Shown here piece after piece: positions 11,719-61,850 of a stretch of 64,000 nucleotides of DNA. A program made the translations under genes and the position numbers. Below the pieces are notes generated by a model. The model was not told the origin of the DNA. It did no database searches and worked only from the letters and a program-made list of their open reading frames with translations. Within the stretch, counting starts at the first letter, position 1; the number at the start of each line of letters is the position of its first letter. This DNA comes from Cucumis sativus. Lineage: Eukaryota; Streptophyta; Magnoliopsida; Cucurbitales; Cucurbitaceae. The stretch covers positions 1,984,001-2,048,000 of the forward strand of contig NC_026658.2 of assembly GCF_000004075.3 (NCBI RefSeq), in the 5' to 3' direction.

Positions 11719-13141
<1,423 letters not shown>

Positions 13142-14628
13142 AACTAATACATAATAATATATGTTGATCAAATTTAACTTGCTTTCTTGAAATAAAAAGA
13201 TCAACATGTCTCGTTCTTGAGATTACAATTAAGTTAAATCAAGAGAGGAATCTAGCTCCCTTTTCCCTCTTCCATATGATATATGTTATAATTAAGGCTA
13301 CTAAGTATATTGTATGTGTGTTACGTTAATTATATATAATAAAGATTGAGAGTTATAAAACTTTGATCTCTCTCCAAACTTATAGTGTGTATCGTTTTCT
13401 TGTATTATATTTGTTTTATTTGTTGGTTCATCGTTCTTTTGCATTGGATGATGTTGCAGGTTTCTTGTCAACATTGGCATTTTTTCCTTTTGGGATGGAT
13501 CATTCCCTACGCCTTCTCCTAGTATCTTACACGATTGAATATCATTGTCTTAAACGACCCTCAACAATATCAATTAAAATGATCAATTTAAAAATTAACT
13601 TAAAGCAAACATTTGATAGTTTCAATTTAAAACCTCAAGTACCATGCATATAGGAATTAAGTTTCAAATAAACACTTTTGTTTAATTTTAGAACGTTCCA
13701 TTTATTCTCATAACTTTCTAGTTAACTCTATCCCAAAACAAACAATTAAATCAATTTACATCATTTTAAAAATAAATGGAAAAGAAATAATTATATTCTA
13801 TTTTAATATCTCAAACTTTTAAAATATAATCCTTCCTAAAATAGTTTTACTCTTACCCTTTTTCCATGGTCAACCTTATATAAATAATAACCCTTAAAAA
13901 AAATTTAAGTAATATAAATTTTTTTAAAAGAAAATTGAAAAAGTTAGAGTTATGAACCTAAAAATAATAATAATAAAATAATGACAATATTTTCATAGAA
14001 AGACGTACAAATGGTAAAACTATACAAATAATGCAAACTTAAAATTCACTAACTAAAATCACTTCATCCTATACCTTTTGTGTTATAATGGATAAATTAA
14101 TACTTGTGAGTTATTAACTCAACCAAATAAAAACAAATAAGTTACTTTTTCTTTCACTTAAAACCTTTTCTCATTTTTATTTTCCCTTTTAAAAAAACGT
14201 AAGTCACTTGAACAATAAATTCTAACTTTTTTTTCTTATAAATCTAAAATTTATTAACAATAAAATCTAACCTTTTTTTCTTATAAATCTAAAATTAATG
14301 TAGTTAAGATTTAAAACGAATTAACATAACCAAATCTCAATGTAATAAAGTTATAATAATACCATATATAATTGGAATGAGAATATAAAACATTAATTAT
14401 TGTACTATATATATAATCAATTGTTTTTAAAAATATTTTTTACTCGGATAATCGTTTTAAAAATGTTCATATTATTTTTTAAATAAAAAGTAAAAGAATA
14501 ACCGTTCAACCATTAAAAAATAAAAATTAATGACTAAATCTTAACTAAGCATCCTATAATCAAGAAAAATCTCTATAACCACACCCATTTTAAGGGGAAG
14601 AAGGTGATTATACAGTTGAGCAAAGGTC
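13142..14628. repeat. Flank, then upstream part of duplicated cassette
   Basis: 13142-13680 is the 3' flank of the dead reductase; the open frame at 13363-13653 has no recognisable content. From about 13680 the sequence matches the flanks upstream of the other cysteine proteases (about 20400-21300, and in reverse 54.1-54.95 kb and 59.7-60.5 kb). The homology marks the left edge of the inverted duplication. Confidence 0.7.
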
Positions 14629-14636
14629 TATATAAG
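14629..14636 (+). promoter_or_regulatory. TATA box of CP1
   Basis: TATATAAG about 59 bases before the ATG at 14695, inside a block conserved upstream of all four protease copies. Confidence 0.75.
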
Positions 14637-14694
14637 TTGCTTTAAACTTGCTTTGCCAACCATCAATTCATCCTATTATTCAAATCTTCCCACC

Positions 14695-16066
14695 ATGACC
14701 ATGATGAAATTTCTTATTGTTTTAGTTGTTTTGATTGCTTTCACCACTCACCTATGTGAGAGCTTTGAGTTGGAAAGAAAAGATTTTGAATCCGAAAAAA
14801 GTCTAATGCAACTCTACAAGAGATGGAGTAGCCACCATAGAATCTCAAGGAATGCACATGAAATGCACAAACGTTTCAAGATCTTTCAAGATAATGCAAA
14901 ACATGTGTTTAGAGTGAACCACATGGGAAAATCATTAAAATTGCGGCTTAACCAATTTGCTGATTTGTCTGATGATGAGTTTAGTATGATGTACGGTTCC
15001 AACATTACTCACTACAACGGCTTACATGCCAATCGTGTTGGTGAATTTATGTATGAACGAGCAATGAATATCCCATCTTCAATTGATTGGAGGCAAAAAG
15101 GAGCTGTGAATGCCATAAAAAATCAAGGCCATTGTGGTAATTAATTTAATTTCATTTATGATCTTTCTAAAGCCTAATGCCTTCTAGCTAATAGTTACTA
15201 ATGCAATTATGTGTAATTTCATTTATGATCTTTCTAAAGCCTAATGCCTTCTAGCTAATAGTTACTAATGCAATTATGTGTTATGTGTTCGACAGGAAGT
15301 TGTTGGGCGTTTGCAGCTGTGGCTGCCGTGGAATCTATTCACCAAATAAAAACAAATGAATTAGTATCTCTATCAGAGCAAGAAGTGGTGGATTGTGACT
15401 ATAAAGTCGGTGGTTGTCGTGGAGGAAATTATAACTCTGCATTTGAGTTCATAATGCAAAATGGTGGAATCACAATTGAGGAAAACTATCCATATTTTGC
15501 AGGAAATGGATATTGTCGTAGACGAGGAGTGAGTATAATTCTAATTGAGCTATCTAAATTTGTTATATGAGTGCATTATTCATTATTGATCATAATATAA
15601 TTATGTGTATTGTGTTTGATATTTCATTAATAGCCTAACAATGAGAGAGTAACAATTGATGGATATGAGCGCGTACCTCGTATGCTTTGATGAAAGCAGT
15701 GGCACACCAACCGGTAGCAGTGTCGGTAGCTTCAAGTGGGAGTGATTTTAGATTTTACGGGGAGGCAAGTGTAGTTAATTTTGTTGTTGTTAATTATAAT
15801 TTGGTGCAACATATATAATTAAAAGAAAAAATGATAATTATTTGCAGGGAATGCTTAGAGAAGATAGCTTTTGCGGATATAGAATTGACCACACGGTAGT
15901 GGTAGTTGGGTATGGAAGTGATGAAGAGGGAGATTATTGGATAATAAGAAACCAATATGGAACTCAATGGGGAATGAATGGTTACATGAAGATGCAACGA
16001 GGAACACGAAACCCACAAGGTGTATGTGGAATGGCTATGCAACCTTCCTTTCCCGTCAAGTATTGA
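14695..16066 (+). pseudogene. Papain-like cysteine protease CP1 (frameshifted)
   Basis: Papain family (C1A) preproprotease with four exons: 14695-15136, 15296-15528, 15634-15764, 15848-16066. The product has a signal peptide, an I29 prodomain with a full ERFNIN pattern (E-x3-R-x3-F-x2-N-x3-V-x3-N in [21 protein letters not shown], split [10 protein letters not shown] / [11 protein letters not shown]) and NQFADLS, a maturation site before IPSSIDWR, catalytic Cys in GSCWAFA, His in [10 protein letters not shown] and Asn in RNQYGTQWG. Exon 3 is 131 bases rather than 141: ten bases are missing after CCTCG at about 15681, where the other copies read RNNEYALMK or QNNEYALMK. This shifts the frame and stops translation before the His and Asn. 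The start is the first ATG in a good context (CCACC before ATG). Otherwise very close to CP3. Confidence 0.85.
15148..15281 (+). repeat. 67-bp tandem duplication in CP1 intron 1
   Basis: Two identical 67-base units at 15148-15214 and 15215-15281, wholly inside intron 1. CP2 and CP4 carry different tandem duplications in the same intron; CP3 has no full one. Confidence 0.9.
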
Positions 16067-17648
16067 TTGGATTTCCTCTTTTTTATTTTAGAACGGGTAG
16101 CTAGCTAGCTAAGCTAGGGATAGGGTTTTATTCGTTTGCTATTTTTTATTTTTGAAAATAATGTAGCAGAAAGTACATTATTCTGCTTTTGCTTTCAATT
16201 TCCTTCGGTTGTAGCAATTCCAACATAAATAAATAATTAGTTTCACTCATAATTGTTCTCTAATTTTTCTTATGATTTACTATAAAATAATTAACATTAT
16301 AACACTTACTCAATCCGTTAACTACAAATCACTCATAAACATGTTAACTCACTCATCAAGATTTATAAGGTGATCGAACTACAAATCACTCACTCATATG
16401 GATGAACTACAATCTTTTTAAAAAAATCAAAATTGATATAGATATATATTTGTTGCTAAATTTTAAAACATTAATTAATTCTTAAAATATGTGTTAAGAA
16501 TTAAATCTTAACAAATATTCAAATCAAGAAAAAAATTACATGTATAAATATTTTAGTTGCTAATGGCCAAAAATAAAATTTTAAAAGAATAAAATTTTAG
16601 ATTCTATATTTTTTTAAAAAACATTTTCAAAGTTTTATTATTTACCTTTGTAATAATAATAATAATAATAATATAGTTTACATCGTAATAGACTACGTTA
16701 TCAAAAATAAAAGAAAAAAGAAAAATTGAAGTATTCAAATGCTTCTATTGAAAAAGATGGTGAAAACTAATATTAGGAGACAAATTGTTAAAATTATGCT
16801 TTCAAATAGGGTTTTGATTTAATTTGGCTTAATCTAATCATTGGTTTCCATCATTTGAATGTCTAACAAAAACAATTTTCTAATTTTAAAAATATATACC
16901 ACAAAAATTATAGACTCAAAATGCAATCAAGAATGGATCGTACTAACATGCAAATTGAATATTCTTCTTTCACATAATTCTCACAAATAACTTTCGCCAT
17001 TGTCATCAGCCCACGAAGACTAGGTATGATTTTTTTTTTTTTTTTTTGGTTTTAGCTTTCTGCCTTTGTAACCATTTTATTTTATCTGTAAATTCTGGTA
17101 AGATCCACTTCTAAAATTAATAAGAAAAAGTAAAATATCAGTATTGATGATATCAACACCTGACTATGATTACCATTGTTGGGGGAGGTGCATGCATAAA
17201 CATCTCACTTCCACCCACATGTCAAAGATGCATTATATATTTGGAGTGAATTTGAATGTTATTGTTGCAAAAATCAATATATTTGTGTACATTTGTTTTC
17301 TCCAAATTAGTTATTTTTATCCTTCAAAAAATTAATTATTCTTTTTTCTAAGATGAAGTTCTACAAAAGTAATTAGCAAATCCTAACATTTTGTTGAAAC
17401 GTTAACAAAATTTTAATAAAATGAACCAAATTAAGTATGTTTAATAAAGTTTAGTGGTTAAAATTGACATTTTTAAAAGTATAAACACCAAAATAGAATA
17501 ATATTTCATTAATTCTATGAATCAAATTATGATTTAAATAGAAAGTAACTATTATCATTACTTACATATAATTTTTTAGAATTGGAAACTAGAGAGTTAA
17601 TGAGAACAATCAAAACGGTACATAAAAATTATAAGGTTTTAATTTGAC
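16067..17648. repeat. Intercassette spacer between CP1 and MYB A
   Basis: 3' flanks of the convergent protease and MYB genes. Just after the protease stop is a 'gctagctagctaagctag' stretch present in most copies. An (aat)n microsatellite lies at about 16651-16673 and a poly-T run near 17031-17049. Homologous spacers occur at 22778-24140 and, inverted, at 51.1-52.66 kb and 57.26-58.2 kb. No gene seen. Confidence 0.7.
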
Positions 17649-18797
17649 TCATTGATCCTTGTTGTTGAGACGCTTCATGTGTTGCGCTATACGTGCTTCC
17701 GCTAAAGCAAAAAATTCAGGCTCGGCAGTGGTGATATCATGAATACTTGTTCTCTTATGCTTTGGTGAGGTCTGACGAAGAAAATACTTTTGTGCATGAC
17801 TAGCCACTTGTGTGTGTGTTTTTGTAATCACCACGTAGTTTGCAATTTTTTTCCATGCACCTTGGCCTAAAAGTTGCATCCCCGCTAGAAATAATCTGCA
17901 ATAATATGTATGTATCAGTAAATAACTTAGATGAGTTGCATATATTATATTTGTATTGTTGTATACGTACTTGTGCTCCCTTATGCTCCAATTTGTGGAG
18001 TTGTTTCTTATCTTCAATGAGTTTTGCGACAATAGCGGTTGTGGCGGTAATGATGACGATGGCAACAAATTTGTCGTTGACAAAGATATTGTTGGAACAT
18101 GTGGTCTAATCATTTGGGTAGGGATGTCAGAAAGCAAACCAGTATAACTAGTGGAGTCAGCAAATTGACCATTATTATGAGTCATTGAAAAAGTGGAAGG
18201 AGAGCAAAAATGTGATGTTTGAGGATCATGAAAGAGAGAAGGATTATTCAAATTGGAGTCAAAAGAACAACCGTTTTCAAATGTCATGGTTGTTTTAGTG
18301 GAGTTGGAATTGACGACGTCAGAGAGAAAACCATTGTTATATCTAATAGAATCATTAGATGAGTTATGGGTTGTTGAAAGAGTAGAAGGAGAACAAAGAA
18401 AAGCATCACCCATGTTGTTGTAGTTATTGTTGGGATCATTAAATTGAGTATAAGCAGGATGGTAAAATTGTGGAGTTTCAAAATTATCATTGAGAACATT
18501 AAATTGAGGGAAAGAAGGGTAATATTGTGTAGTTTCAAAGTTACCGTTGGGATTTGTTAATGATAAACTATGATTCACCCTTCTCAAACTAGTCTCTTCC
18601 ATCGTTGGTAGTTGCTCCGACCCTACATTATTTATCCAATTACATGAAGAAAACTCCAACCCCAATGACATCTCATGATTATCATCTATACTCGGGCTCA
18701 ATGCAACTGAATTTTGATCAAAATTATATGGACTGGTCGGAGTATGAAGAGAAGAACCAGAAGAATGAGGAAAAGACACATTCTTATTTTCTGCCAT
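17649..18797 (-). CDS. MYB-related transcription factor A (SHAQKYF class)
   Basis: Single-repeat MYB-like nuclear DNA-binding protein. Exon 1 is 18797-17971 and exon 2 is 17895-17649, giving 357 residues. The N-terminal about 265 residues are low-complexity, rich in Asn, Ser and Thr, with repeated FETTQYYPSF / FETPQFYHPA units. The one MYB repeat lies at about 268-318: tryptophan in NWSIREH, a second in GQGAWKKIANYV, then TQVASHAQKYF, the hallmark of this class. The start is the ATG at 18797; the frame extends upstream only through a GTG. The single intron (75 bases) cuts the repeat after EHK and is itself free of stops in frame. It is transcribed away from the dead farnesyltransferase exon, as its twin at 49947-51089 is from the intact gene. 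Confidence 0.87.
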   Translation of the reverse strand: MAENKNVSFPHSSGSSLHTPTSPYNFDQNSVALSPSIDDNHEMSLGLEFSSCNWINNVGSEQLPTMEETSLRRVNHSLSLTNPNGNFETTQYYPSFPQFNVLNDNFETPQFYHPAYTQFNDPNNNYNNMGDAFLCSPSTLSTTHNSSNDSIRYNNGFLSDVVNSNSTKTTMTFENGCSFDSNLNNPSLFHDPQTSHFCSPSTFSMTHNNGQFADSTSYTGLLSDIPTQMIRPHVPTISLSTTNLLPSSSLPPQPLLSQNSLKIRNNSTNWSIREHKYVYNNTNIIYATHLSYLLIHTYYCRLFLAGMQLLGQGAWKKIANYVVITKTHTQVASHAQKYFLRQTSPKHKRTSIHDITTAEPEFFALAEARIAQHMKRLNNKDQ

Positions 18798-19341
18798 TAT
18801 CAAAACACCTCTCGAATATGATTGAATGATCTTTTTTTTTTTTAAATTCAAATGGTATGACACGAAAGGGCATTTATAAGGAATTACAAAACCAATATTA
18901 TGTTGGAAAGGTTTCCAAATCGTTGGAGAAGTAGGAGTTGAAGTGATGAAACTAACTTGTGGTGGTAAATTTTATAATATCCTTTTCCAGTTCCTAATAG
19001 TATATATACTTTCAAAATGTGATTAATTAATATAAACGACTTTTATGTATAAGTGTATATAAGCATATAGTTTTAATTAGGATATATAAGTGATAGGTTA
19101 ACTATATACATTTAGTTGTATTTGTTTAGTGTATATAGAGAAGTAGAAGAATCATTAATCGTTTCTTTGTACTGTATGCTGTGTAGTCTCGGAGGATTGA
19201 ACTACAATGGAAAGTGGAAGCACAATCAGAATCTTACTCATGGAACTCTTCACGATCCCTAATTACCTTTCACTCAATCTCTGATTCTTCATCTTTCCTC
19301 ATCTTTTCTGGTTCCGATTGCCTATTTTCCCAGCAATATCC
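18798..19341. promoter_or_regulatory. Duplicated divergent promoter, left copy
   Basis: 544 bases between the MYB A start (minus) and the dead farnesyltransferase ATG (plus). It matches 49387-49946 in reverse. A TATAAA on the minus strand at 18873-18878 suits MYB A. The farnesyltransferase side is a probable 5' UTR (about 19190-19341). Since the right-hand homologue serves two intact genes, this is likely a copied bidirectional promoter. Confidence 0.65.
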
Positions 19342-19564
19342 ATGGATTTCGATGGCACTTTACCCATCAGCGAGCGACGAGAGTAGTACGACGTAACTCC
19401 GCTTCCGCAAGACGATGGTCCCAATCCGATTGTGGCGATTGCCTAAACAAGACTTCTCTGAGCTCATGGGTTACTTCCGAGCTGTTTATCGAGCAGATGA
19501 TCATCCTCCTCGTTCTCTCCACCTCACTGCTGAAGCCATTGCTATGAATCCTGGCAATTACACT
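19342..19564 (+). pseudogene. Farnesyltransferase alpha exon 1 copy
   Basis: Matches exon 1 of the intact gene (49386-49162). It begins [14 protein letters not shown], then stops where the intact copy reads [12 protein letters not shown], and it also lacks bases within the AIAYKEDF segment, where a stop now sits. The exon end before GTAATTTCT is kept, but no later exons follow; after about 19590 the sequence differs from intron 1 of the intact gene. A fragment carried along with the promoter and MYB A. Confidence 0.9.
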
Positions 19565-21299
19565 GTAATTTCTTCTTCCTTGAATGCATGAAAAAGCCTA
19601 CATCATTCTTACTCATAATGGAAGCTTGTCTATATGTACTAGTCATAATTACCTGCAGTGGCTGGCTTGGCATTTTTAATTTTTAGTATTTGCTCCCTTT
19701 TGGTCTGCATGCAGCATCGAGAAAGGCGTCAATTTTTAAATTCCATCTCAAATTCATAGGGAAAAAGAAGACTAAAAAAAAGATTGAAGCATTATAAGAA
19801 TCAAGAAGAAACCCATCATACCCTTGAAGGATTCTGGCAGCATGAAACACAATATTCATATGAATTGCAACATTGTAAAACAAGATTGCAGCCACTGCAA
19901 AGTGTAAACAGAAAATAAACAATAAGCTCGAAAGAGCCCTTACACTCATCATGAGCCATTGAAGATTTACTTTGGAAAAAAAAAACTCATTGACAAGGAA
20001 ATTTCTCCCCTTTTCCATGACAACAACGAGACGGTGGATCAACAGACAAAGCATCACACACATATAACCTGGAAATGAGAGCAAAATAATTATACTGAAT
20101 GAAAAAAGTATACATTAGGCTTTGAGAGAATTTCTATTTCGAACAAAAATATGAACGTAACAAGTTATAGGACTTCCCAGAATATTTAATATTTTATAGA
20201 ATACTATAGAGATATCGATACAATACAATAATAAGTAGAAAACATAAGTATTGTCATAGCCAGCAGATCGAGGTCATAGTTGAAAATTAAAATCATAGAT
20301 GAAATATCTAAATTGAAGTACAAGAAATAAATAATGCTTTATTACCGTGGAGGGTGACCAACAAAAGTATAGCAAATAGGTAGGCAATGCAACATGATTG
20401 ACTACCCAAGATTAACCTTTCACAACAATTAAATCAATTGATATCATTTTAAAAACAAATAGAAAAGAGAAAATTTATATTCTATTTTAATATCTCAAAA
20501 CTTTTAAAATATAATCTTTTTAAAAATAGTTTCACTCTTACCATTTTTAGTTATACTATTGATTTATTTTCATAGTCAACTTTGTATATAAATAATAACC
20601 CGTCTTTTAAAAATAAAATTAAAGTAATATAAAAGGTTATTTTTAAAAAATTGAAAAAGTTAGAATTATAAATCTATAAATAATAATTAAAAAAATAATG
20701 TTAATATTTTCGTAACTAAGATCATACAAATGGTAAAACTATACAAATAATGCAAACTACTAAAACCACTCCATCCTATACTCAGTGAGTTACTAACAAA
20801 CAAATAGTTTTTTTTTTTTCACTTTAAACCTTTTTTCATTTTTATTTTCCCTTTAAAAAAAAACTAAGTCACTTCTTCTAAACAATAAATTCTAACTTTT
20901 ATTTTTCTTTTGTTATAAATCTAAAATTTATCAACAATAAAATCTAACTTTTTTTTTCTTATAAATCTAAAATTTATATAGTTAAGATGATTGGATATGA
21001 CCGTAGATTGGAGAATATAAAACTGATAATCATAACAATTATAATTGGAATGAGAATATAAAACATTGATTATTCTACTATATATATATATATAACTAAT
21101 TGTTTTTTAAAATATTTTTGACTATGATAATTGTTTAGAAAGGTCCTATTAATTTTTTTTAATAAAAAGTAAAATAATAACGGTTCAACAATTGAAACTA
21201 ATGAATAAATCTTAACTAAGTATCCTATAATCAAGAAAAAATTCTATAACCACACCCATTTTAAGGAGAAGAAGGTGATTATACGGTTGAGTAGAGGCC
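19565..21299. repeat. Segment X and CP2 upstream flank
   Basis: About 19595-19740 (segment X) matches 55570-55730 in reverse; both lie downstream of dead farnesyltransferase exons but X was not seen in the intact gene's intron 1. The open frame at 19683-20084 (minus) is hydrophobic with no recognisable family and is not called. From about 20400 the sequence is the conserved flank upstream of the proteases. Confidence 0.65.
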
Positions 21300-21307
21300 T
21301 ATATAAG
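21300..21307 (+). promoter_or_regulatory. TATA box of CP2
   Basis: TATATAAG 58 bases upstream of the ATG at 21365, at the same place as in the other three copies. Confidence 0.75.
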
Positions 21308-21364
21308 TTGCCTTAAACTTGCTTTTGGAACGATAAATTCATCCATTATTCAAATCTCCTCACC

Positions 21365-22777
21365 ATGACCATGATGAAATTTCTTATCGTTTTTGTTGTT
21401 TTGATTGCTTTCACCTCTCACCTATGTGAGAGCTTTGAGTTAGAAAGGAAAGATTTTGAATCCGAAAAAAGTCTCATGCAACTCTACAAGAGATGGAGTA
21501 GCCACCATAGAATCTCAAGGAATGCACATGAGATGCACAAACGTTTCAAGATCTTTCAAGATAATGCAAAACATGTGTTTAGAGTGAACCACATGGGAAA
21601 ATCATTGAAATTGCGGCTTAACCAATTTGCTGATTTGTCTGATGATGAGTTTAGTATGATGTATGGTTCCAACATTACTCACTACGACAACTTACATGCC
21701 AAGGCTGGTGGTGGTGGTCGTGTTGGTGGATTTATGTATGAACGAGCAAGGTATATTCCATCTTCAATCGACTGGAGGGAAAAAGGAGCTGTGAATGCCA
21801 TAAAAAATCAAGGCCTCTGTGGTAATTAATTTAATTTCATTTATAATCTTTCTAAGCCTAATGCCTTCTAACTAATAATTAACTAATAATTATGTGTTAT
21901 TATGTGTTGTTCGACAAATCTTTCTAAGCCTAATGCCTTCTAACTAATAATTAACTAATAATTATGTGTTATTATGTGTTGTTCGACAGGGAGTTGTTGG
22001 GCGTTTGCAGCTGTGGCTGCCGTGGAATCTATTCACCAAATAAAAACAAATGAGTTAGTATCTCTATCAGAGCAAGAAGTGGTGGATTGTGATTATAAAG
22101 TTGGTGGCTGTCGTGGAGGAGATTATAACTCTGCATTTGAGTTCATAATGCAAAATGGTGGAATCACAATTGAGGAAAACTATCCGTATTTTGCAGGAAA
22201 CGGATATTGTCGTAGACGAGGAGTGAGTTTAAACCAATATAATTCTAATTAAACTATCTAAATTTATCATATGAGTGCATTATTGATTATAATATAATTA
22301 TGTGTATTGTGTTTGACATTTCACTAATAGCCTAACAATGAGAGAGTAACAATTGATGGATATGAGCGCGTACCTCGAAACAACGAGTATGCTTTGATGA
22401 AAGCAGTGGCACACCAACCGGTAGCGGTGGCTGTAGCGTCAAGTGGAAGTGATTTTAGATTTTACGGGGAGGCAAGTGTAGTTAATTTTGTTGTTGTTAG
22501 TTATAATTTGGTGCAACATATATAATTAATTAAAAGAAAAAATGATGATTATTTGCAGGGAATGCTTAGAGAAGGTAGCTTTTGCGGATATAGAATTGAC
22601 CACACGGTAGTGGTAGTTGGGTATGGAAGTGATGAAGAGGGAGATTATTGGATAATAAGAAACCAATATGGAACTCAATGGGGAATGAATGGTTATATGA
22701 AGATGCAACGAGGAACACGAAACCCACAAGGTGTATGTGGAATGGCAATGCAACCTTCCTTTCCCGTCAAGTATTGA
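21365..22777 (+). CDS. Papain-like cysteine protease CP2 (intact)
   Basis: Exons 21365-21821, 21990-22222, 22331-22471, 22559-22777 give 349 residues, the usual length for a plant C1A preproprotease. Signal peptide about 1-20, I29 prodomain with ERFNIN and NQFADLS, then mature enzyme from about [11 protein letters not shown]. Catalytic Gln and Cys in NQGLCGSCWAFA, His in [10 protein letters not shown], Asn in RNQYGTQWG. The usual N-S-W after the catalytic Asn region reads N-Q-Y. Exon 3 ends with a GC donor (gag, then gcaagt). A four-glycine run ([13 protein letters not shown]) near the end of the prodomain sets it apart from CP1 and CP3; CP4 has a shorter form. There is no C-terminal KDEL or granulin domain, so it probably goes to the vacuole or outside the cell. 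Its MYB partner is missing downstream. Confidence 0.9.
21845..21988 (+). repeat. 72-bp tandem duplication in CP2 intron 1
   Basis: Units 21845-21916 and 21917-21988. Each unit runs almost up to the acceptor, so most of the pyrimidine/acceptor region is doubled, but only the second copy is followed by the AG used at 21989. Confidence 0.88.
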
Positions 22778-28968: not shown

Positions 28969-29058
28969 TGAATAGTAATTAATTATAATTGTTATTGTGT
29001 GATCATGGAAGCTGTGTGGATTTCTGACGAGATGAGTTTTGCAATTTGCAATTTGCAT

Positions 29059-49946: not shown

Positions 49947-51089
49947 ATGGCAGAAAATAAGAATGTGTCTTTTCCTCATTCTTCTGGTTTTTCTCTTCAT
50001 ACTCCAACCAGTCCATCTAATTTTGATCAAAATTCAGTTACATTGGGTCCGAATATAGATGATAATTATAAGATGCCATTGGAGTTTTCTTCATGTAATT
50101 GGATAGATAATGCAAGGTTGGAGCAACTACCAGCGATGGAAGAGACTAGTTTGAGAAGGGTGAATCATGGTTTATCATTAACAAATCCCAACGGTAACTT
50201 TGAAACTACACAATATTACCCTTCTTTCCCTCAATTTAATGGTCTCAATGATAACTTTGAAACTCCACAATTTTACCATCCTTCTTATACTCAATTTAAT
50301 GATCCCAACAATAACTACAACAACATGGGTGATGCTTTTCTTTGTTCTCCTTCTACTCTTTCAACAATGCATAACTCATCTAATGATTCTATTAGATATA
50401 ATAATGGTTTTCTCTCTGATGTCGTCAATTCCAACTCCACTAAAACAACCATGACATTTGAAAACGGTTGTTCTTTTGACTCCAATTTGAATAATCCTTC
50501 TCTCTTTCATGATCCTCAAACATCACATTTTTGCTCTCCTTCCACTTTTTCAATGACTCATAATAATGGTCAATTTGCTGACTCCACTAGTTATACTGGT
50601 TTGCTTTCCGACATCCCTACCCAAATGATCAGACCACATGTTCCAACAATATCTTTGTCAACGACAAATTTGTTGCCATCGTCATCATTACCGCCACAAC
50701 CGCTATTGTCACAAAACTCATTGAAGATAAGAAACAACTCCACAAATTGGAGCATAAGGGAGCACAAGTACGTATATAACAATACAAATATAATATATGC
50801 AACTCATCTAAGTTATTTACTAATACATACATATTATTGCAGATTATTTCTAGCAGGGATGCAACTTTTAGGCCAAGGTGCATGGAAAAAAATTGCAAAC
50901 TACGTGGTGGTTACAAAAACACACACACAAGTGGCTAGTCATGCACAGAAGTACTTTCTTCGCCAGACCTCACAAAAGCATAAGAGGACAAGTATTCATG
51001 ATATCACCACTGCCGAGCCTGAATTTTTTGCTCTAGCGGAATCACGTATAGCGCAACACATGAAGCATCTCAACAAAAATGATCAATAA
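49947..51089 (+). CDS. MYB-related transcription factor B (SHAQKYF class)
   Basis: Near-identical twin of MYB A. Exon 1 is 49947-50767 and exon 2 is 50843-51089, giving 355 residues. Same plan: long Asn/Ser/Thr-rich N-terminus with FETTQYYPSF and FETPQFYHPS units, then one MYB repeat (NWSIREH, GQGAWKKIANYV, TQVASHAQKYF) near residues 266-316, ending HLNKNDQ. The ATG at 49947 is chosen; the frame starts upstream with TTG. It differs from MYB A at scattered residues in the first 70 (for example two residues fewer near LEFSSCNW) and near the C-terminus, while the middle is almost unchanged. The 75-base intron is free of stops in frame, as in MYB A. Shares a promoter region with FTA. Confidence 0.88.
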   Translation: MAENKNVSFPHSSGFSLHTPTSPSNFDQNSVTLGPNIDDNYKMPLEFSSCNWIDNARLEQLPAMEETSLRRVNHGLSLTNPNGNFETTQYYPSFPQFNGLNDNFETPQFYHPSYTQFNDPNNNYNNMGDAFLCSPSTLSTMHNSSNDSIRYNNGFLSDVVNSNSTKTTMTFENGCSFDSNLNNPSLFHDPQTSHFCSPSTFSMTHNNGQFADSTSYTGLLSDIPTQMIRPHVPTISLSTTNLLPSSSLPPQPLLSQNSLKIRNNSTNWSIREHKYVYNNTNIIYATHLSYLLIHTYYCRLFLAGMQLLGQGAWKKIANYVVVTKTHTQVASHAQKYFLRQTSQKHKRTSIHDITTAEPEFFALAESRIAQHMKHLNKNDQ

Positions 51090-52661
51090 ATCAAATTAAA
51101 ACCTTATAATTTTTATGTACTGTTTTGATTGTTTCCATTAACTCTCTAGTTTACAATTCTAAAAAATTATATGTAAGTAATGATAATAATTACTTTCTAG
51201 TTTAAATCATAATTTGATTTTTACCGATGAAATATTATTCTATATTGGTGTTTATACTTTAAAAAATGTCAACTTTAACGTCTCAAGTTTATTATTCATA
51301 CATAATTGGGTTCATGTTATTAAAATTTTATTCTTTTTAACAAAATCTTAGGATTTGCTAATTATTTTTACCATATATATTTGTTTTACCCCATTTTTAT
51401 TCTTTTAAAATAACCCACATGCACACATGACTATTACATTCTGATCATTCAAAATATAATTTGAAAAAGAAATCTCAACATTTCAATTTAATTTCCTTGT
51501 CCAGTCTCTTATATTAAATTTAACAAATTTATATTTTGTAGAACTTCAATTTAGAAAACAAAAAATAATTAATTTTTTAAAGAATAAAAATAACTAATTT
51601 GGAGAAAACAAATGTACACAAATATATTGATTTTTGCAATACTGACATTCAAATTCACTTGCAAATATATAATGCAATGGTTACTAAACTGGTGTATTAA
51701 AAAAAAAAATACTAAAACAACTTATTGCTTGCATCTTGGATATGTAGGATTGTTGCTCAAGGTCTCCATTGTCGATGGAAGTAAGATGTTTTATGCATGC
51801 ACCTTCACCAACAATGGTGATCATAGCTATGTATTGATATCATGAATACTCAACTTGAGATTTTACTTTTTCTTATTAATCTTAGAAGTGGATTTTACAA
51901 GAATTTACCCATAAAGTAAAATGGTAAAGGCAAATAGAAAGCTAAAACAAAACCAAATTTCATACTTAGTCTTCGTGGGTCGAAAGTTATTTGTGAGAAT
52001 TATGTGAAAACATCATTTTAACAATTTGTCTCTTAATATTAGTTTTCACCATGTTTTTCAATAGAAGCATTTGAATACTTCAATTTTCTTTTCTCTTTTA
52101 TTTTTCATAACTTAGGCTATTATGATGTAACTATTATTATTATTATGACGGTAAATAGTAAAACTTTGAAAATGTTTAAGAAAATATAGAATTTAAAGTT
52201 TTATTTTTGGCCATTAGCAACTAAAATATTTATAAATGTAAATCTTTTCTTGGTTTGAATATTTGTTAAGATTTAATTCTTCTTACATATTTTAAGAATT
52301 AATTAATGTTTTAAAATTTAGCAACAAATATATATCTATATCAATAGTTCGATCACATTATAAATTTTTATGAATGATTTCAGTTCAATAACCTTATAAA
52401 TAATTGATTGAGTAAGTGTTATAATGTTAATTATTTTATAGTAAATCATAAAAAAAAAATTAGAGAACAATTATGAGTGAAACTAATTATTTATTTATAT
52501 TGGAATTGCTACAACGGAAGGAAATTGAAAGCAAAAGCAAAGCAGAATAATGTACTTTCTGCTGCATTATTTTCAAAAATAAAAAATAGCAAAAGAATAA
52601 AATCCTATCCCTAGCTTAGCTAGCTAGCTATCCGTTCTAAAATAAAAAAGAGGAAATCCAA
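51090..52661. repeat. Intercassette spacer between MYB B and CP3
   Basis: Inverted counterpart of 16067-17648: the convergent 3' flanks of MYB and protease with an (aat)n-like tract near 52130-52145 and the gctagctagc motif near 52617-52629. The open frame at 51612-51845 is AT-rich and not called. Confidence 0.7.
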
Positions 52662-53987
52662 TCAATACTTGACGGGAAAGGAAGGTTGCATCGCCATTCC
52701 ACATACACCTTGTGGGTTTCGTGTTCCTCGTTGCATCTTCATGTAACCATTCATTCCCCATTGAGTTCCATATTGGTTTCTTATTATCCAATAATCTCCC
52801 TCTTCATCACTTCCATACCCAACTACCACTACCGTGTGGTCAATTCTATATCCGCAAAAGCTATCTTCTCTAAGCATTCCCTGCAAATAATTATCATTTT
52901 TTCTTTTAATTATATATGTTGCACCAAATTATAATTAACAACAACAAAATTAACTACACTTGCCTCCCCGTAAAATCTAAAATCACTCCCACTTGAAGCT
53001 ACCGACACTGCTACCGGTTGGTGTGCCACTGCTTTCATCAAAGCATACTCGTTGTTTTGAGGTACACACTCATATCCATCAATTGTTACTCTCTCACTGT
53101 TAGGCTATTAGTGAAATATCAAACACAATACACATAATTATATTATGATCAATAATGCACTCATATAATAAATTTAGATAGTTTAATTAGAATTATATTG
53201 GTTTAAACTCACTCCTCGTCTACGACAATATCCATTTCCTGCAAAATATGGATAGTTTTCCTCAATTGTGATTCCACCATTTTGCATTATGAACTCAAAT
53301 GCAGAGTCATAATTTCCTCCACGACAACCACCGACCTTATAATCACAATCCACCACTTCTTGCTCTGATAGAGATACTAATTCATTTGTTCTTATTTGGT
53401 GAATAGATTCCACGGCAGCCACAGCTGCAAACGCCCAACAACTTCCTGTCGAACATATAACACATAATTATTAGAAGGCATTAGTAACTATTAGCTAGAA
53501 GGCATTAGGCTTTAGAAAGATTATAAATGAAATTAAATTAATTACCACAACGGCCTTGATTTTTTATGGCATTCACAGCTCCTCTTTGCCTCCAATCGAT
53601 TGAAGATGGGATATTCATTGCTCGTTCATACATAAATCCACCAACACGATTGGCATGTAAGCTGTTGTAGTGAGTAATGTTGGAACCGTACATCATACTA
53701 AACTCATCATCAGACAAATCAGCAAACTGGTTAAGTCGCAATTTTAATGATTTTCCCATGTGGTTCACTCTAAACACATGTTTTGCATTATCTTGAAAGA
53801 TCTTGAAACGTTTGTGCATCTCATGTGCATTTCTTGAGATTCTATGGTGGCTACTCCATCTTTTGTAGAGTTGCATGAGACTTCTTTCAGATTCAAAATC
53901 CTTTCCTTCCAACTCAAAGCTCTCACACAAATGAGACGTGAAAGCAATCAAAACAACGAAAACAATAAGAAATTTCATCATGGTCAT
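52662..53987 (-). CDS. Papain-like cysteine protease CP3 (intact)
   Basis: Exons in gene order: 53987-53546, 53445-53213, 53104-52964, 52880-52662; 344 residues. Signal peptide ([16 protein letters not shown]), I29 prodomain with ERFNIN and NQFADLS, then the mature enzyme from about [11 protein letters not shown]. Catalytic Cys in NQGRCGSCWAFA, His in [10 protein letters not shown], Asn in RNQYGTQWG. Exon 3 has the full 141 bases, reading [11 protein letters not shown], so unlike CP1 it is intact. The GC donor after exon 3 is kept. The frame upstream of the ATG reaches a TTG only. The closest relative is CP1: both share the HANRVG prodomain end and the same 5' leader. Lies convergent to MYB B. 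Confidence 0.9.
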
Positions 53988-54045
53988 GGTGGGAAGATTT
54001 GAATAATAGGATGAATTGATGGTTGGCAAAGCAAGTTTAAGGCAA

Positions 54046-54053
54046 CTTATATA
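54046..54053 (-). promoter_or_regulatory. TATA box of CP3
   Basis: TATATAAG on the minus strand, 59 bases ahead of the ATG at 53987. Confidence 0.75.
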
Positions 54054-56520
54054 GACCTTTGCTCAACCGTATAATCACTTCTTCCCCTTAAAATCGGTTT
54101 AGTTATAGAGATTTTTCTTGATTATAGGATGCTTAGTTAAGATTTACTCATTAATTTTTATTTTTTAATGGTTGAACGGTTATTCTTTTACTTCTTATTT
54201 AAAAAATAATATGACCATTCTTAAAACGATTATCCTAGTAAAAAATATTTTTAAAAACAATTGGTTATATATATAGTACAATAATTAATGATTTATATTC
54301 TCACTTTATTTAGTTGAAATTTGTGTCCGTTAATTCAATTTAAATCTTAACTACTTAAATTTTAGATTTATAAGAAAAAATTATATTTTATTGTTAATAA
54401 ATTTTAGATTTATAAGAAGAAAAAAAGAGTTTAGATTTTATTGTTCAGAATAAATGACTTAGTTTTTTAAAGGCGAAAATAAAAATGAAAAGAAGTTTGT
54501 TTAAAAAAAACATTATTTGGTTTAGTTAATAACTCACCAATATATATTCATTATAGCACAAAAGTATATCTCCATTATAACACAAAAGGTATAGGATGAA
54601 GTGAGTTTAGTAGGTGAATTTTAAGTTTGCATTATTAGTATAGTTTTACCATTTGTATGGTCTTGTGATGGAAATATTAACATTTTTTTATTATTTTTAT
54701 GTTCATAATTCTAACTTTTTCAATTTTTTAAAAATAACATTTTATATTACTTAAATTTTATTTTTAAAAGGGTTATTATTTATATACAGAGTTGAATAAA
54801 GTAAACTATATTTTAAAAGTTTGAGATATTAAAATAGATTATAAATTTTTTTTTCAATTATTTTTAAAATGATTTCAATTGATTTAATTGTTTGTTTTGT
54901 GATCTGAAGTAGAGTGTGTGATGAGAAGGTTGGAATCTAAGAATAAATGGAAACGTTTTAAAATTAAATGTTGTTGACATTATTAATTATCCAGTTCTAG
55001 GATTCGGAATTCAGGTGTCTAACAAGTTTACCAAATTAATGGATAGACATTTTGCAATGGCAAAGTTATCTATTGGAAAACTTGGACATCAACAAAGCTT
55101 TTCACGTATGAAAAGATGATGTTGCAAGTGGTGTTGTGCTCACACAGTGGTATAAAAAGATCCCAAGATCATATGTGTATATACACACACTGTGGCAAAC
55201 GAAAGATCAAGAGTGGTGGGTACAATATAGCTACATGGCAAGTTCGAGAACAAGTTCAAGTGATTCTCCTCATGTCATGTATCTAATATATCTTATCATG
55301 GCTGAGTGGTCATTATCCTATCTATTCTCTTATCATCCATTCACAAGGAAACAATTATATTTGACTCATAATGAATATGTCAAAATCCCAGATGTAGGAC
55401 ATCAAGAGACCTTTTAATCAGACAAATATACCTTAGATGATTCCGACGGCCATAGGGGGAGTGCTATGCGTGGGTAAAGATGTCCACGCCTAATAAAGAC
55501 ATCTTTACTAACTGATATGCATTCTTACAGAATCCACTATACATTCTTACAGTAAAAACATAGCGTCCTCCAAGTAAAATTGAAGCCTTTCTGGATGCTG
55601 CATGCATGCAGACCAAAGGGGAGCAAATATAAAAATTAAAATTGCATAGCCAGCCACTGCAGGTAATTACTAATGACTAGTACCTATAGACAAGCTTCCA
55701 TTATGAGTAAGAATGATGTGTAGTAGGTTGTATTTAAGCTTATTCCGTTTCTTATATTCTTAAAGAAACTTCTGAAAGATGGATTATCCCACCTAAAAAG
55801 ATCATTTTTTAACTACAATTTTTTTAACTGCTTTTAATTGTTAATACTTTTATTTTTCAAAATTTATATTAGATTTTTTTTCATCTAAAATCATATTAAA
55901 AAGTATTTTTTTTTAGTATTAATTCTTCCCAAGGCACTTGAAGAAAATTTGAGTCTGTCCAAAAGCATTTTTTTCCACAAGTTATCCCAAAGACACTGTT
56001 AATATCAGATTAAACATGTAAAACTACGTTAAATCTTGCAGGGACATATGCTAGCGTCCTTGATTTCTGTGTTGGGAGGTGTGAGTGTTGTAAGTATCCT
56101 GCATTGATATTTTTTTCATGTTTAAAATGAGTTCAGTACTATTGCATTTTATTTGTGTCATTGATTGTTTCTTATTAGTAATTTTGTATGATTTTTACGA
56201 AAAAGTGTATTTACTTACCTTCATATAAACCCGGCTAAACGTGTGTAATTTTTTTTCTACTTATTATGTAATGTTTATAAAATGGAAGAAGTTTTTCTAT
56301 TTGTAGAACATACGTTTAAGTGTCATTTGTGTCATTATTGATGATGCTCCAACGAGTCAGGCAAGGTTGAATATACATTAATGGATACGAAGTGCCACTC
56401 CATTTAGGAATATCTTTTGAATGATTTACACAATGCTTTCATTTCGATTTATAGTCCTTGTAAACTATGATGAATGTGTATAATTTATCATCATATGTTT
56501 TATTTTCGTTGTTCAGATAT
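54054..56520. repeat. CP3 upstream flank, unresolved stretch, segment X copy
   Basis: Up to about 54970 this is the conserved protease upstream flank (matches 13680-14640 in reverse). 55.0-55.45 kb contains an open frame (55136-55417, CTG start) rich in Trp, Tyr and Ser that I do not recognise. About 55570-55730 is segment X, inverted relative to 19595-19740. The remainder to 56.5 kb shows nothing recognisable. Confidence 0.55.
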
Positions 56521-56524
56521 TTGC

Positions 56525-56860
56525 GAGGATTCATAGCAATATAGCTTCAGCGGTGAGGTGGAACGAGGAGAACGCTCATCTGCTTGATAGACAGCTCGGA
56601 AGTAACCCATGAGCTCAGATTTGTAGGCAATTGGGACCATCGTCCTGCGGAAGCGGAGTTATATCGCTCGCTGATGGGTAAAGTGTCATCGAAATCCATG
56701 AATATTGCTAGGAAAACAAACAATCGGAACTAGAAAAGTTGAGGAGAGATGAAGAATCAGAGATAAAGAATCGTGAAGAGTTCCATGAGTAAGATTCTGA
56801 TTGTGCTTCCACTTTCCATTGTAGTTCAGTTCACTCCTCCGAGACTACACAGCGTACAGT
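56525..56860 (-). pseudogene. Second dead copy of FTA exon 1 with leader
   Basis: On the minus strand about 56700-56525 matches FTA exon 1 but the start codon region is altered (ATTCATGGATTT order kept, frame lost), with several internal gaps including a stretch before the MGYFRAVY-like part and one near the end. The leader (about 56860-56701) shares with the left dead copy an insertion that is absent from the intact gene, within 'cacaatcagaatcttactc'. No later exons. Confidence 0.85.
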
Positions 56861-56869
56861 ACGAAGAAA

Positions 56870-57256
56870 CCATCCTCAAACATCACATTTTTTAATAATC
56901 CTCTCTCTTACATGATCCTCAAAATCACATTTTTGTTCTACTAGTTATTCCGGTTTGCTTTCCGACATCCCTACTCAAATGGTCAAACCACATGTTCCAA
57001 CAATGTGTTTGTCTTTGACAAATTTGTTGTCATCGTCAGCCACGACTGCAAAACTCAATGAATATAAGAAACAACTCCACAAATTGAAGCATAAGAGAGC
57101 ACAAGTAGGTATATAATGACAAAAATATAATATATGTAACTCATCTAAGTTCCTTACTAATACATCCAGTGGGAATGCAACTTTTAGGCCAAGGTGCATG
57201 GAAAAAAGTTGCAAACCACGTGGTGAACCCATGAAACGTCTCAACAACAAGGAGAG
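56870..57256 (+). pseudogene. Dead MYB factor copy (fragment)
   Basis: Resembles MYB B from about the HDPQTSHF segment to the end, with large internal gaps. It keeps a piece matching TGLLSDIPTQM (here with V-K-P-H following), then the end of exon 1, the intron, and the start of exon 2 (GMQLLGQGAWKKVANHVV), then jumps to the last residues (MKRLNNK-like). The N-terminal two thirds and the SHAQKYF helix are missing. A minus-strand frame across it (57250-56975) is a shadow. Confidence 0.85.
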
Positions 57257-58218
57257 TCAAATTGTGTATATAAGTAATGATAATAATTACTTTCTAGTTT
57301 AAATCATAACTTGATTCTTAGAAATGAAATATTATTCTATTTTTAAATCATAACTTGATTCTTAGAAATGAAATAAAAATTTATTAACTTAAATGATTCC
57401 TCTGAACTTAAATTATTTGGCATTCGTACAATCCTAACTTCTCTTATAAATTATTTGGCATTCATGCAAAAATAATTAGTAAATCCTAATTTTATTCTTT
57501 TAAAATAACCCACACGCACATGACTACTATATTCTAATCATTCAAAATATAATTATAAAAAAAAATTATTTCCTTTGTCCAGTCTACCTTATATTAAAAT
57601 TAAACAAATTTATATTTTGTAGAAATTTTAAAAGATAAAAATAATTAATTTGGAGAAAACAAATGTACACAAATATATTGATTTGCAACAATAACATTCA
57701 AATTCACTTGCAAATATATAATGCATTGTTGCTCAAGGGCTCTGTTGTCGATGGAAGTGAGATGTTTATGCATGCACCTCCACCAACAATAAGGATCATA
57801 GCTAGGTGTTGATATTTGTTAAGATTTAATTCTTCTCACATATTTTAAGAATTAATTAATATTTTAAAAATTAGCAACAAACATATTCTATATCAATTTT
57901 GAGAATATCAATTTTGATTTTTTTAAAAAAATTGGGTGCTCTAATTTGTAGTTGGATCACATTATTATTAAATGAACATTTTTTTCACTGATTTTAGAGC
58001 ACCCAATTTTATAGTAAATCATAAGAACAATTAGAATACGAGAGAAACTAATTATTTATTTATATTGGAATTGCTAACACGGAAGAAAAAAAAAGCAAAA
58101 AAAAAAAAATGCAAAAGCAGAATGAAATTAAAAAAAAAATGCAAAAGCAGAATGAAATTTACCAAATGTAGCAAAAGCAAAAGCTAGCTACCCGCGTCCT
58201 AAAATAAAAAAGAGAAAA
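57257..58218. repeat. MYB-protease spacer, shortened
   Basis: A shorter version of the spacer at 51.1-52.66 kb with internal losses and duplicated short units (for example near 57290-57370). It contains a small 17-base inverted-repeat element at 57928-58010. Confidence 0.65.
57928..58010. repeat. 83-bp element with 17-bp inverted ends
   Basis: Left end aaaattgggtgctctaa (57928-57944), right end its reverse complement (57994-58010). I did not see it in the matching spacers at 16-17.6 kb or 51-52.6 kb. Possibly a tiny MITE remnant or a hairpin. Confidence 0.6.
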
Positions 58219-59598
58219 TCAATACTTGACGGGAAAGGAAGGTTGCATTGCCATTCCACATACACCTTGTGGGTTTCGTGTTCCTCGTTGCATCTTCATA
58301 TAACCATTCATTCCCCATTGAGTTCCATATTGGTTTCTTATTATCCAATAATCTCCCTCTTCATCACTTCCATACCCAACTACCACTACCGTGTGGTCAA
58401 TTCTATATCCGCAAAAGCTACCTTCTCTAAGCATTCCCTGCAAATAATTCATTTTTTCTTTTAATTATATATGTTGCACCAAATTATAATTAACAACCAC
58501 AAAATTAACTACACTTGCCTCCCCATAAAATCTAAAATCACTTCCACTTGAAGCTACCGACACTGCTACCGGTTGGTGTGCCACTGCCTTCATCAAAGCA
58601 TACTCGTTGTTTTGAGGTACACGCTCATATCCATCAATTGTTACTCTCTCGCTGTTAGGCTATTAGTGAAATATCAAACACAATACACATAATTATATTA
58701 TAATCAATAATGCACTCATATAATAAATTTAGATAGTTTAATTAGAATTATATTGGTTTAAACTCACTCCTCGTCTACGACAATATCCGTTTCCTGCAAA
58801 ATATGGATAGTTTTCCTCAATTGTGATTCCACCATTTTGCATTATGAACTCAAATGCAGAGTTATAATCTCCTCCACGACAACCACCGACTTTATAATCA
58901 CAATCCACCACTTCTTGCTCTGATAGAGATACTAACTCATTTGTTTTTATTTGGTGAATAGATTCCACAGCGGCCACAGCTGCAAATGCCCAACAACTTC
59001 GTGTTGAACAACACATAATTATTAGTAACAACACATAATTATTAGTTAGAAGGCATTAGACTTTAGAAAGATTATAAATGAAAATAAATTAATTACCACA
59101 TAGGCCTTAGACTTTAGAAAGATTATAAATGAAAATAAATTAATTACCACATAGGCCTTGGTTTTTTATGGCATTCACAGCTCCTTTTTCCCTCCAGTCG
59201 ATTGAAAATGGAATATTCATTGCTCGTTCATACATAAATCCACCAACACGACCACCAGCCTTGGCATGTAAGTTGTTGTAGTGAGTAATGTTGGAACCGT
59301 ACATCATACTAAACTCATCATCAGACAAATCAGCAAACTGGTTAAGTCGCAATTTTAATGATTTTCCCATGTGGTTCACTTTGAACACACGTTTTGCATT
59401 ATCTTGGAAGATCTTGAAACGTTTGTGCATCTCATGTGCATTCCTTGAGATTCTATGGTGGCTACTCCATCTCTTATAGAGTTGCATTAGACTTTTTTCA
59501 GATTCGAAATCTTTTCTCTCTAAATCAAAGCCCTCACATAGGTGAGAAGCGAAAGCAATCAAAACAACGAAAACAATAAGAAATTTCATCATAGTCAT
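58219..59598 (-). pseudogene. Papain-like cysteine protease CP4 (splice acceptor lost)
   Basis: Exons by homology: 59598-59148, 59000-58768, 58659-58519, 58437-58219; all open, 347 residues if spliced as in CP3. Signal peptide, ERFNIN, catalytic Cys, His and Asn are all encoded. However the intron 1 acceptor, cgacag in the other copies, reads caacac here, so AG is AC just before the exon encoding SCWAFA. Without it, normal splicing should fail or shift, losing the catalytic Cys exon or the frame. Exon 1 and its donor are also partly duplicated (51-bp unit). The prodomain end HAKAGGRVGGF groups it with CP2. Probably non-functional at the RNA level though coding sequence is still nearly clean, so the loss is recent; a non-AG acceptor or a nearby AG cannot be ruled out. 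Confidence 0.75.
59056..59157 (-). repeat. 51-bp tandem duplication across CP4 exon 1/intron 1
   Basis: Units at 59056-59106 and 59107-59157. Each includes the end of exon 1 and the GT donor, so intron 1 carries a second, downstream copy of its own donor site. Confidence 0.9.
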
Positions 59599-59656
59599 GG
59601 ACAGAAGACTTGAATAATAGGATGAATTGATTGTTGAAAAAGCAAGTTTAAGGCAA

Positions 59657-59664
59657 CTTATATA
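59657..59664 (-). promoter_or_regulatory. TATA box of CP4
   Basis: TATATAAG on the minus strand, 59 bases ahead of the ATG at 59598; same block as in the other copies. Confidence 0.75.
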
Positions 59665-61850
59665 GGCCTCTACTCAACCGTATAGTCACCTTCTTCTCCT
59701 TAAAATGGGTTTGGTTATAGAGATTTTTCTTGATTATAGGATACTTAGTTAAGATTTATTCATTAGTTTTTATGTTTCGATTGTGAACAGTTATTATTTT
59801 ACTTTTTTATTTAAAAAATAATATGACCATTCTCATTCCAATTATAATTGTTATGATTATCAGTTTATTGCTTTGGAATTTGGGTAGGTTAATTCGATTT
59901 AAATCTTAACTGCATAAATTTTAGATTTATAAGGAAAAAAAAGTAGATTTTATTGTTAATAAATTTTAGATTTATAACCAAAAAAAAGTTAGGATTTATT
60001 GTCGAGAAGAAGTTACTTAGGTTTTTTTAAAAGGGAAAATAAAAATAAAAAAAGGTTTAAAGTGAAAAAAAAACCTATTTGTTTTTATTTGGTTGAGTTA
60101 GTAACTCACTGATTGTTTATCCATTATAACATAAAGAAGTGATTTTAGTAGTTTGCATTATTTGTATAGTTTTACCATTTGTATGATCTTAGTTATGAAA
60201 ATATTAACATTATTTTTTAATTATTATTTTTATATTCATAAATCTAACTTTTTCAATCTTTTAAAAATAACCTTTTATATTACTGTAAATTTTATTTTTA
60301 AAAGGGTTATTATGAAAGTAAACGAAAAAATGGTAAGTGAAACTATTTTAGAAAAAATTATATTTTAAAAGTTTGAGATATTAAAATAGAATATAAATTT
60401 TCTTTTTTCAATTTAATTTTAAAATGACGTCAATTGATTTAATTGTTTGTTATCAGAAATAGAGAGTGTGATGAGAAAGTTGGAAATTAAGAATAAATGG
60501 AAACCTTTTAAAATTCAATGTCGTTGACAATATGTAATGCTCAAGCCTAGGATTTAGAATCGTGACAACTCATTCGAATGTCGACCTAATAAGACTGATA
60601 TACACAACATAATCGCATCAACTTTACATGGCAAGCTAAGAGAACATGGGATTGAAGAAATTGTTGTATCTAACCTTACAAGGAAAAGAAAGGTTGATAT
60701 TAGAGACGTAGAGATGTTTTTATTGAGTTACAGTCATGTTCTCATGCTCTTGCAATAGAGGAGAATATAAGACTCTCCAAGTGAGAGTAAACAGATACCA
60801 ATAGAAGAGCATGAGGATATAAAGATAGTCTGATATCCCAGAATATAAACACATAATCATTGTGAGGAATGGTATCAAAGCGAAATAAAACATCATAGAC
60901 CCAAATTCCAAATTATAGTCTGGCGTTGAGCGTTGTTGTTATAAGTTTAAAACTCATATATAGTTAAAGTTATCACACTAAATATCAATAATCATCTTCA
61001 AGATAATAGGATATTTATTACCTATTTTACTCCTTATTTTTAAAAAACTAATATGGTTTTTTTTAAAACAATTTATCCTACTAAAAATATACTTTTAAAA
61101 ATAATTGCTTAAGAAAAAAAAAAAAGTTAGATTTTATTATTGTTTGACTTTACTTTTTTAAAAAATTAATACTTTTTTAAATGGAAAAATAAAAATAAAA
61201 ATAAAAAAGTTTGAAAATGAAAAAAATCAAATTAGTTGTTTTTATTTCATTTGGTAATTAATAACTCATATTTATTTGTTTTTATTTCATTTGGTAATTA
61301 ATAACTCATATTTATCCATGCTAAACATGAAGGTACACAAAAAAGTATAGGGTGAAGTAATATTGGATTCTTGGTATAGTTTTAATGATTTTAGTAATGA
61401 AAATATTACTGTTATGTTTTTTATTTTATGTAGGACAGGATCTTTTATACTCATAATTCTAACCTTTTCATTTAAAAGTTAACATTTTATATTATTTAAA
61501 ATTTATTTTTAAAACTATTAGTACTTATTTACAAGGTATAAAGTGAAACTATTTTAGAAAAAAATTAGTGTTAATGTTTCAAACTTTTAAAATTAGAACG
61601 TAATTTTTTATTTTTTTTAATTTGTTTTTAAAACGGTGACAATGGTCTCTTGTATGATTATTGCGCAACATTGTTTTATATTATGAAATATACGTTGAAA
61701 ATAAGGAGTGTAAGTTAAAATCTTGTGTTGAAAAATATTTCAAAATTAAATGTAGTTGACGATTAAGTCTATTATTATTACAAATTTAAAACATATTTAC
61801 AAAATTAAAGACCAGTCCAGTCCAGTCTCATCTAAGTATATTGAATCTCA
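59665..61850. repeat. CP4 upstream flank and decayed further flank copy
   Basis: 59.67-60.54 kb is the conserved protease upstream flank. About 61.0-61.75 kb repeats the same kind of sequence in more decayed form, with no protease attached. A 40-base tandem repeat lies at about 61236-61316. The minus-strand frame at 60720-60911 is not called. Confidence 0.6.
60600..60900. mobile_element. Possible Copia-type LTR retroelement scrap
   Basis: A short stretch with gag-like wording and a site near 60870 resembling the initiator-Met tRNA primer-binding site common in Copia elements. Fragmentary and broken; no paired terminal repeats seen. Weak. Confidence 0.2.

Follow-up and report, generated by a model that had tools for sequence, protein, structure and literature searches.

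The 64,000-nucleotide window analysed here (Cucumis sativus, contig NC_026658.2, positions 1,984,001 to 2,048,000 of the forward strand; G+C content 32.3%) carries an inverted gene array, in which a gene for a papain-like cysteine protease, a MYB gene and exon 1 of a farnesyltransferase alpha (FTA) gene recur together. Judged by its gene content, the window is plant DNA, because the nearest solved relatives of its protease and reductase are plant proteins, an origin that we presume from their names. The array consists of four units, two in each of two blocks that lie ~25 kb apart, and all four proteases point toward its middle. A full unit comprises a four-exon protease, a MYB gene that faces the protease from the other strand, and an FTA exon 1 that lies head to head with the MYB gene; exon borders are models built from alignment and splice signals. 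The units and the two related spacer pieces between them are as follows.

13681 to 19574, + strand: unit A, with a disabled protease, a MYB gene of intact frame and a damaged FTA exon 1, identified from inverted matches to units C and D and from gene models
20424 to 24143, + strand: unit B, with a protease only
55010 to 49152, - strand: unit C, with an intact protease and an intact MYB gene, joined to the FTA gene
60560 to 56518, - strand: unit D, with a protease that has lost a splice acceptor, a MYB fragment and an FTA exon 1 relic
19600 to 19736, no strand: piece of the A-B spacer, with an inverted match to the D-C spacer (89% over 145 columns)
55576 to 55719, no strand: piece of the D-C spacer that resembles the A-B spacer piece

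A self-comparison of the window matched the left block (13681-24143) to the right block (49152-60560) in opposite orientation. Fifteen inverted pieces of at least 150 columns connect the blocks at 70-92% identity, and the six that exceed 1 kb are 79-92% identical; these longer pieces include 13681-16808 against 54968-52001 (3211 columns, 85.1%), 17365-19574 against 51369-49152 (2238 columns, 91.6%) and 21121-23006 against 59851-58006 (1906 columns, 88.9%). Inverted matches cover 9243 bases on the left side and 9999 bases on the right side, part of the latter past 60560 in a zone of relics. At the same threshold, ten Markov-shuffled windows yielded no off-diagonal match. Thus the antidiagonal between two arms that a first-pass annotation had proposed is present, as are its four protease copies in two facing groups, A and B on the + strand and C and D on the - strand. 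The annotation had also described the arms as mirror images. Their order and orientation are indeed mirrored, but by protease sequence A groups with C and B with D, not outer with outer. The longest exact stretches all join opposite arms (356 bp between A and C, 250 bp between B and D, and 188 bp between A and C within the MYB gene), and the longest within one arm is 120 bp, for A-B as for C-D. Exact inverted stretches of at least 100 bp number six, two of which reach at least 200 bp. The homology of unit B ends ~113 bp beyond the MYB stop, as this is placed on unit C, and a tblastn search of unit B (E up to 0.01) turned up neither a MYB nor an FTA match. The A-B spacer also contains an open reading frame of 143 amino acids (19683-20114, - strand) that overlaps the piece common to both spacers and has no Pfam match (E up to 0.001).

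The four protease copies differ in their state of preservation.

14695 to 16066, + strand: protease A, four exons, with a 10-bp deletion in exon 3 that causes a frameshift
21365 to 22777, + strand: protease B, four exons with an open frame of 351 amino acids (PF00112, 2.4e-71; PF08246, 6.9e-11)
52662 to 53987, - strand: protease C, four exons with an open frame of 346 amino acids
58219 to 59598, - strand: protease D, exon frames open, with the intron 1 acceptor changed from AG to AC

Proteases B and C have GT-AG borders and contain both the I29 prodomain (PF08246) and Peptidase_C1 (PF00112), which identifies them as papain-like cysteine proteases (C1A). Over its length, protease B resembles solved plant proteases; its residues 32-350 match Triticain alpha (5.5e-82). 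The positions of the Gln, Cys, His and Asn residues that we take to be catalytic can be read in both B and C, those of B being placed by the Triticain alpha alignment; the Triticain alpha entry used has a different residue at the catalytic Cys position. Both proteins end in PSFPVKY, and a C-terminal KDEL, the defining feature of KDEL-tailed cysteine endopeptidases, is not present in either, which places them outside that class. All six protease pairs, including those with A and D, have a low ratio of nonsynonymous to synonymous substitution (Ka/Ks 0.085-0.169). Because this holds for every pair, the lesions in A and D are probably recent, or the sequences have been kept alike by exchange. Ks between pairs is 0.088-0.178, which at plant substitution rates corresponds to several million years. 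The array is fairly old and partly decayed, and a very recent origin is disfavoured because its copies have diverged. Three protease copies also carry short tandem duplications that differ among them, with units of 67, 72 and 51 bp that are 98-100% alike (15147-15281, 21845-21988 and 59051-59159, respectively); these lie inside intron 1 or at its edge, no such duplication is listed for C, and they look independent and young.

Two of the three MYB copies in the units are intact.

17649 to 18797, - strand: MYB A, 357 amino acids, with one 75-bp intron (GTACGT...TTGCAG) that is open in frame (PF00249, 3e-08)
49947 to 51089, + strand: MYB C, 355 amino acids
56874 to 57225, + strand: MYB fragment of unit D, containing stops

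MYB C, like MYB A, is intact around a 75-bp intron that is open in frame, and the two differ with a Ka/Ks of 0.43. PF00249 matches one stretch, and the SHAQKYF motif can be read in both copies. They therefore resemble the class of MYB genes named one-repeat SHAQKYF-type in having a single MYB domain with this motif; set against that class is a long N-terminal region of ~265 amino acids, for which there was no Pfam match at E up to 0.001. The three or more MYB copies counted in the first-pass annotation thus become two intact genes, the fragment in D and a short N-terminal relic at ~62.3 kb.

The FTA pieces are especially informative about how the units were copied.

49162 to 49386, - strand: open copy of FTA exon 1 (unit C), with later exons matched at 45.3-46.7 kb
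19342 to 19564, + strand: FTA exon 1 relic of unit A, with an in-frame stop and a frameshift

Exon 1 and one later exon each match solved FTA chains, which identifies the gene as farnesyltransferase alpha; a PPTA repeat appears in two of its exons below the Pfam cut-off, and only some exons of the gene are modelled. Three copies of exon 1 were predicted and three were found, but only one is open and joined to later exons, while the other two are damaged. In relic A, similarity is lost just past the border between exon 1 and intron 1; relic D has internal deletions, and its similarity runs out a few bases short of the exon end. Both pieces end within ~20 bp of the exon border, as read by eye from the alignment. 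Because unit C alone runs on into later FTA exons, and the exons 1 of A and D are damaged or cut, the copying most likely began at the locus that C now represents. The left block is probably an inverted copy whose source was the right array. The damaged FTA exons thus mark the likely source and the likely direction of copying.

Further traces of units lie to the right of unit D.

61072 to 61763, - strand: probably an old protease upstream-flank relic, 61-63% identical to A, B, C and D under relaxed scoring
62285 to 62433, + strand: old remnant of the N-terminal region of a MYB gene, 75-77% identical in DNA
62528 to 62944, - strand: possible additional protease upstream-flank relic, ~60-66% under relaxed scoring

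The main relic matches are oriented as expected of older, lost units. Since only C continues into the FTA gene and these weaker unit matches extend to the right of D, the right side appears to be the older array, and the left block the derived one. A match between 37.4 kb and the right flank (~61%) was set aside as AT-rich similarity, and the weaker relics call for the same caution. Within the possible upstream-flank relic there is also a 107-bp tandem duplication (62715-62932, 98% alike).

The surroundings of the left block bear on the orientation of the segment between the arms.

About 9.4 kb, + strand: aldo-keto reductase relic (copy 1), found as a sequence match
11725 to 13141, + strand: aldo-keto reductase copy 2, its first part frameshifted
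25044 to 27430, + strand: aldo-keto reductase copy 3, the nearest solved relative of its first exon being perakine reductase

The first-pass annotation had placed a single-copy reductase in the inner segment; this does not hold, given the relic and the frameshifted copy to the left of the array. The 10.5-kb block of units A and B sits between reductase copies two and three, and reductases on the same strand around it form the pattern that would be expected if a copied block had been inserted into a tandem cluster. Since all three reductase copies around the left block share the + strand, the 25 kb between the arms appears collinear with the left flank and not inverted relative to it. The annotation had proposed that arms of this size may pair and drive inversions and deletions, and that the locus might vary between accessions. 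Two results weigh against flipping of this segment at present: the uniform orientation of the reductases, and the divergence of the arms, in which even the pieces longer than 1 kb reach just 79-92% identity and long exact stretches are few. Among the other inner genes named by the annotation, FTA is well supported, METTL18 corresponds to one weak match (E = 0.015), and the NTH1 call depends on the iron-sulphur motif of one open frame. The inner segment also contains an open reading frame of 333 amino acids (28138-29139, - strand) with no Pfam match (E up to 0.001). Outside the array, a likely GDSL lipase gene lies at 6569-7871 on the + strand; one of its open frames matches at E = 0.0016, below the curated Pfam cut-off, and the other has no Pfam match. 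No Pfam match was found for several open reading frames of the window.

To follow ancestry along the units, we counted informative sites in the aligned copies and built trees by region. At 59 informative sites in 13681-16440, 41 group A with C and B with D (AC|BD), 10 support AB|CD and 8 support AD|BC. Trees support AC|BD at 100% in the upstream region, 95% in exon 1 and intron 1, and 95% in exons 2-4. In the protease-to-MYB spacer (17150-17520), by comparison, no site supports AC|BD, three support AD|BC and two support AB|CD (Fisher p = 0.004 against 13681-16440), a count from which two deletion-junction sites, both AD|BC, were left out. The mirror pairing of A with D and B with C also fits the cut FTA exon in both A and D, and the spacer piece that follows both (89%). 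Over columns 1-110 of the FTA 5' region, A and D agree against C at 7 sites and A and C against D at 8, five of these 8 within the first 18 columns; C and D never agree against A, all three differ at 2 sites and are the same at 73, and a 6-bp stretch is common to A and D and missing from C. Past column 110, the counts are 1 for A with D, 10 for A with C and 6 for C with D. Variation is also uneven along the protease region. Silent variation among the four copies falls from 221/992 in the 5' part to 26/367 in the 3' part (p = 8e-12), with the cut between the parts picked after inspection of the data, and introns 2 and 3 diverge less than the upstream flank in six of six pairs (p between 3e-7 and 0.006). 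In a run test that used every polymorphic site, uncorrected p values were 0.0008 for B-D, 0.004 for C-D and 0.024 for B-C, and 0.11-0.32 for the other three pairs. Two results were discarded: a tree of columns 3850-4240 with AD|BC at 99%, where A and D carry separate deletions, and an overall site count (AC|BD 91, AB|CD 16, AD|BC 14) that includes columns beyond the end of the homology of B.

These region-wise affinities are observed directly. Because the apparent nearest relative changes along the unit, they suggest exchange between units, by unequal exchange or gene conversion, as the simplest account of the mosaic pattern, and it is this cause, and its type, that we infer. The exchange between copies foreseen in the first-pass annotation is thus supported, also by the three longest exact matches, all between opposite arms, but unproven.

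Together with the copies, their orientation and their lesions, all of which can be read off the window, this pattern leads us to consider it likely that a birth-and-death gene array grew here from the FTA locus, through duplication, copying in inverted orientation and later exchange. The ancestral order would have been a protease, a facing MYB gene and then FTA head to head with the MYB gene. Tandem duplication away from FTA, with a cut near the end of FTA exon 1, would have produced a direct array (relics, D, C) in which the innermost unit alone keeps the FTA gene. A two-unit stretch may later have been copied in inverted orientation, ~25 kb away, into the tandem reductase cluster, giving A and B. 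Each copy would then have decayed on its own, while unequal crossing-over or gene conversion passed sequence between copies, leaving different parts of a unit with different nearest relatives.

Several observations weigh against this history. The direction of copying and the order of events are what we infer from comparisons within one window of a single species. The relic matches depend on relaxed scoring in AT-rich DNA, and some matches in the same zone run the opposite way. Support for AC|BD drops to just 44% in columns 2712-3060, just after the protease gene, and a tree of the upstream region rooted by the 61-kb relic gives the two AC|BD groups 80% and 60%. The switch at the 3' end comprises five sites only and depends on the alignment: a first alignment gave AD|BC 2 and AB|CD 2 there, and the three AC|BD sites that it placed at 17565-17573, with all sites further on, were left out because the homology of B ends at ~17536. 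Three-way counts among A, C and D are dominated by A=C: in the MYB 3' part, A=C stands at 90, A=D at 5 and C=D at 4, and in the preceding spacer A=C stands at 77, A=D at 16 and C=D at 15. These counts are unrooted and fit a long D branch as well as a pairing of A with C. Constraint on short introns could in part explain the low variation of introns 2 and 3. The run test reached no significance for A-C; the runs that it detected are in the upstream flank (B-D, C-D) or intron 1 (B-C) and not in the homogenised 3' half, so that by itself it does not demonstrate conversion of that half.

An account without exchange after copying would start from a longer ancestral direct array of alternating A/C-type and B/D-type units, the middle of which was copied to form the left block. 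Such an array would explain both AC|BD in the protease region and the common spacer piece, and the relics suggest that the right array was once longer; it requires, however, extra units that have since been lost, and still needs exchange within the array for the different affinity at the unit ends. We regard it as a possible but less probable history. A further reading, that the mirror frame was kept while proteases were repeatedly converted out of register (A-C, B-D) over 25 kb, appears doubtful; if true, disabled and intact protease copies would act as a common sequence pool across the arms.

Inverted duplicates that flank a unique segment are also the expected trace of an inversion with staggered breaks, which would here have inverted the inner 25 kb and duplicated the breakpoint region, inverted, at both ends. 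Two Drosophila inversion papers mention inverted duplication in the parts available (PMC3355041, PMC7584159). The arrangement seen here has this form, but reductase copies outside and inside the segment share one orientation, and the right array and its relics are continuous with FTA, making a reversal unnecessary. We thus find such an inversion improbable. An assembly artefact duplicating one arm is very unlikely, since the copies carry separate lesions and their upstream flanks differ by 6-17%; the sequences flanking the copies are different as well, and no evidence in support of an artefact was found.

Plant papain-like cysteine proteases occur as tandem clusters, and the array resembles these C1A clusters in having several copies with I29 and peptidase C1 domains, some of them disabled. 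Unlike in such clusters, MYB and FTA pieces accompany the copies here, and one pair of copies lies inverted. Of the published cases that we found, the closest is the soybean I locus, where inverted chalcone synthase clusters form identical 10.91-kb repeats 5.71 kb apart, the arms make small interfering RNAs, and duplicated copies undergo non-allelic recombination that removes 138 kb and creates hybrid genes, with arms lost in living lines (PMC6710647). Both loci have duplicated plant genes in inverted clusters on either side of a unique segment, and hybrid genes from exchange between copies, probable here, are a further likeness. In contrast to the identical, closely spaced soybean arms, the arms described here are 25 kb apart, their long pieces are 79-92% alike, and they are known from sequence alone. 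Because its arms are less alike, the cucumber array is probably older than those of the I locus. Among the matches listed in open-licence literature on this gene combination and on inverted duplicates with conversion, no title concerned this locus, and among the open-licence papers listed on cucumber proteases none described such a cluster in its title or the opening lines of its abstract.

We conclude that the locus is of a type ordinary for plants, a birth-and-death cluster with an inverted copy, and that it leaves the general view of such clusters unchanged. The growth of a plant gene cluster can be read from it, and its mosaic ancestry points to later exchange among the copies. Conversion between inverted copies in plants could usefully be tested at this locus.

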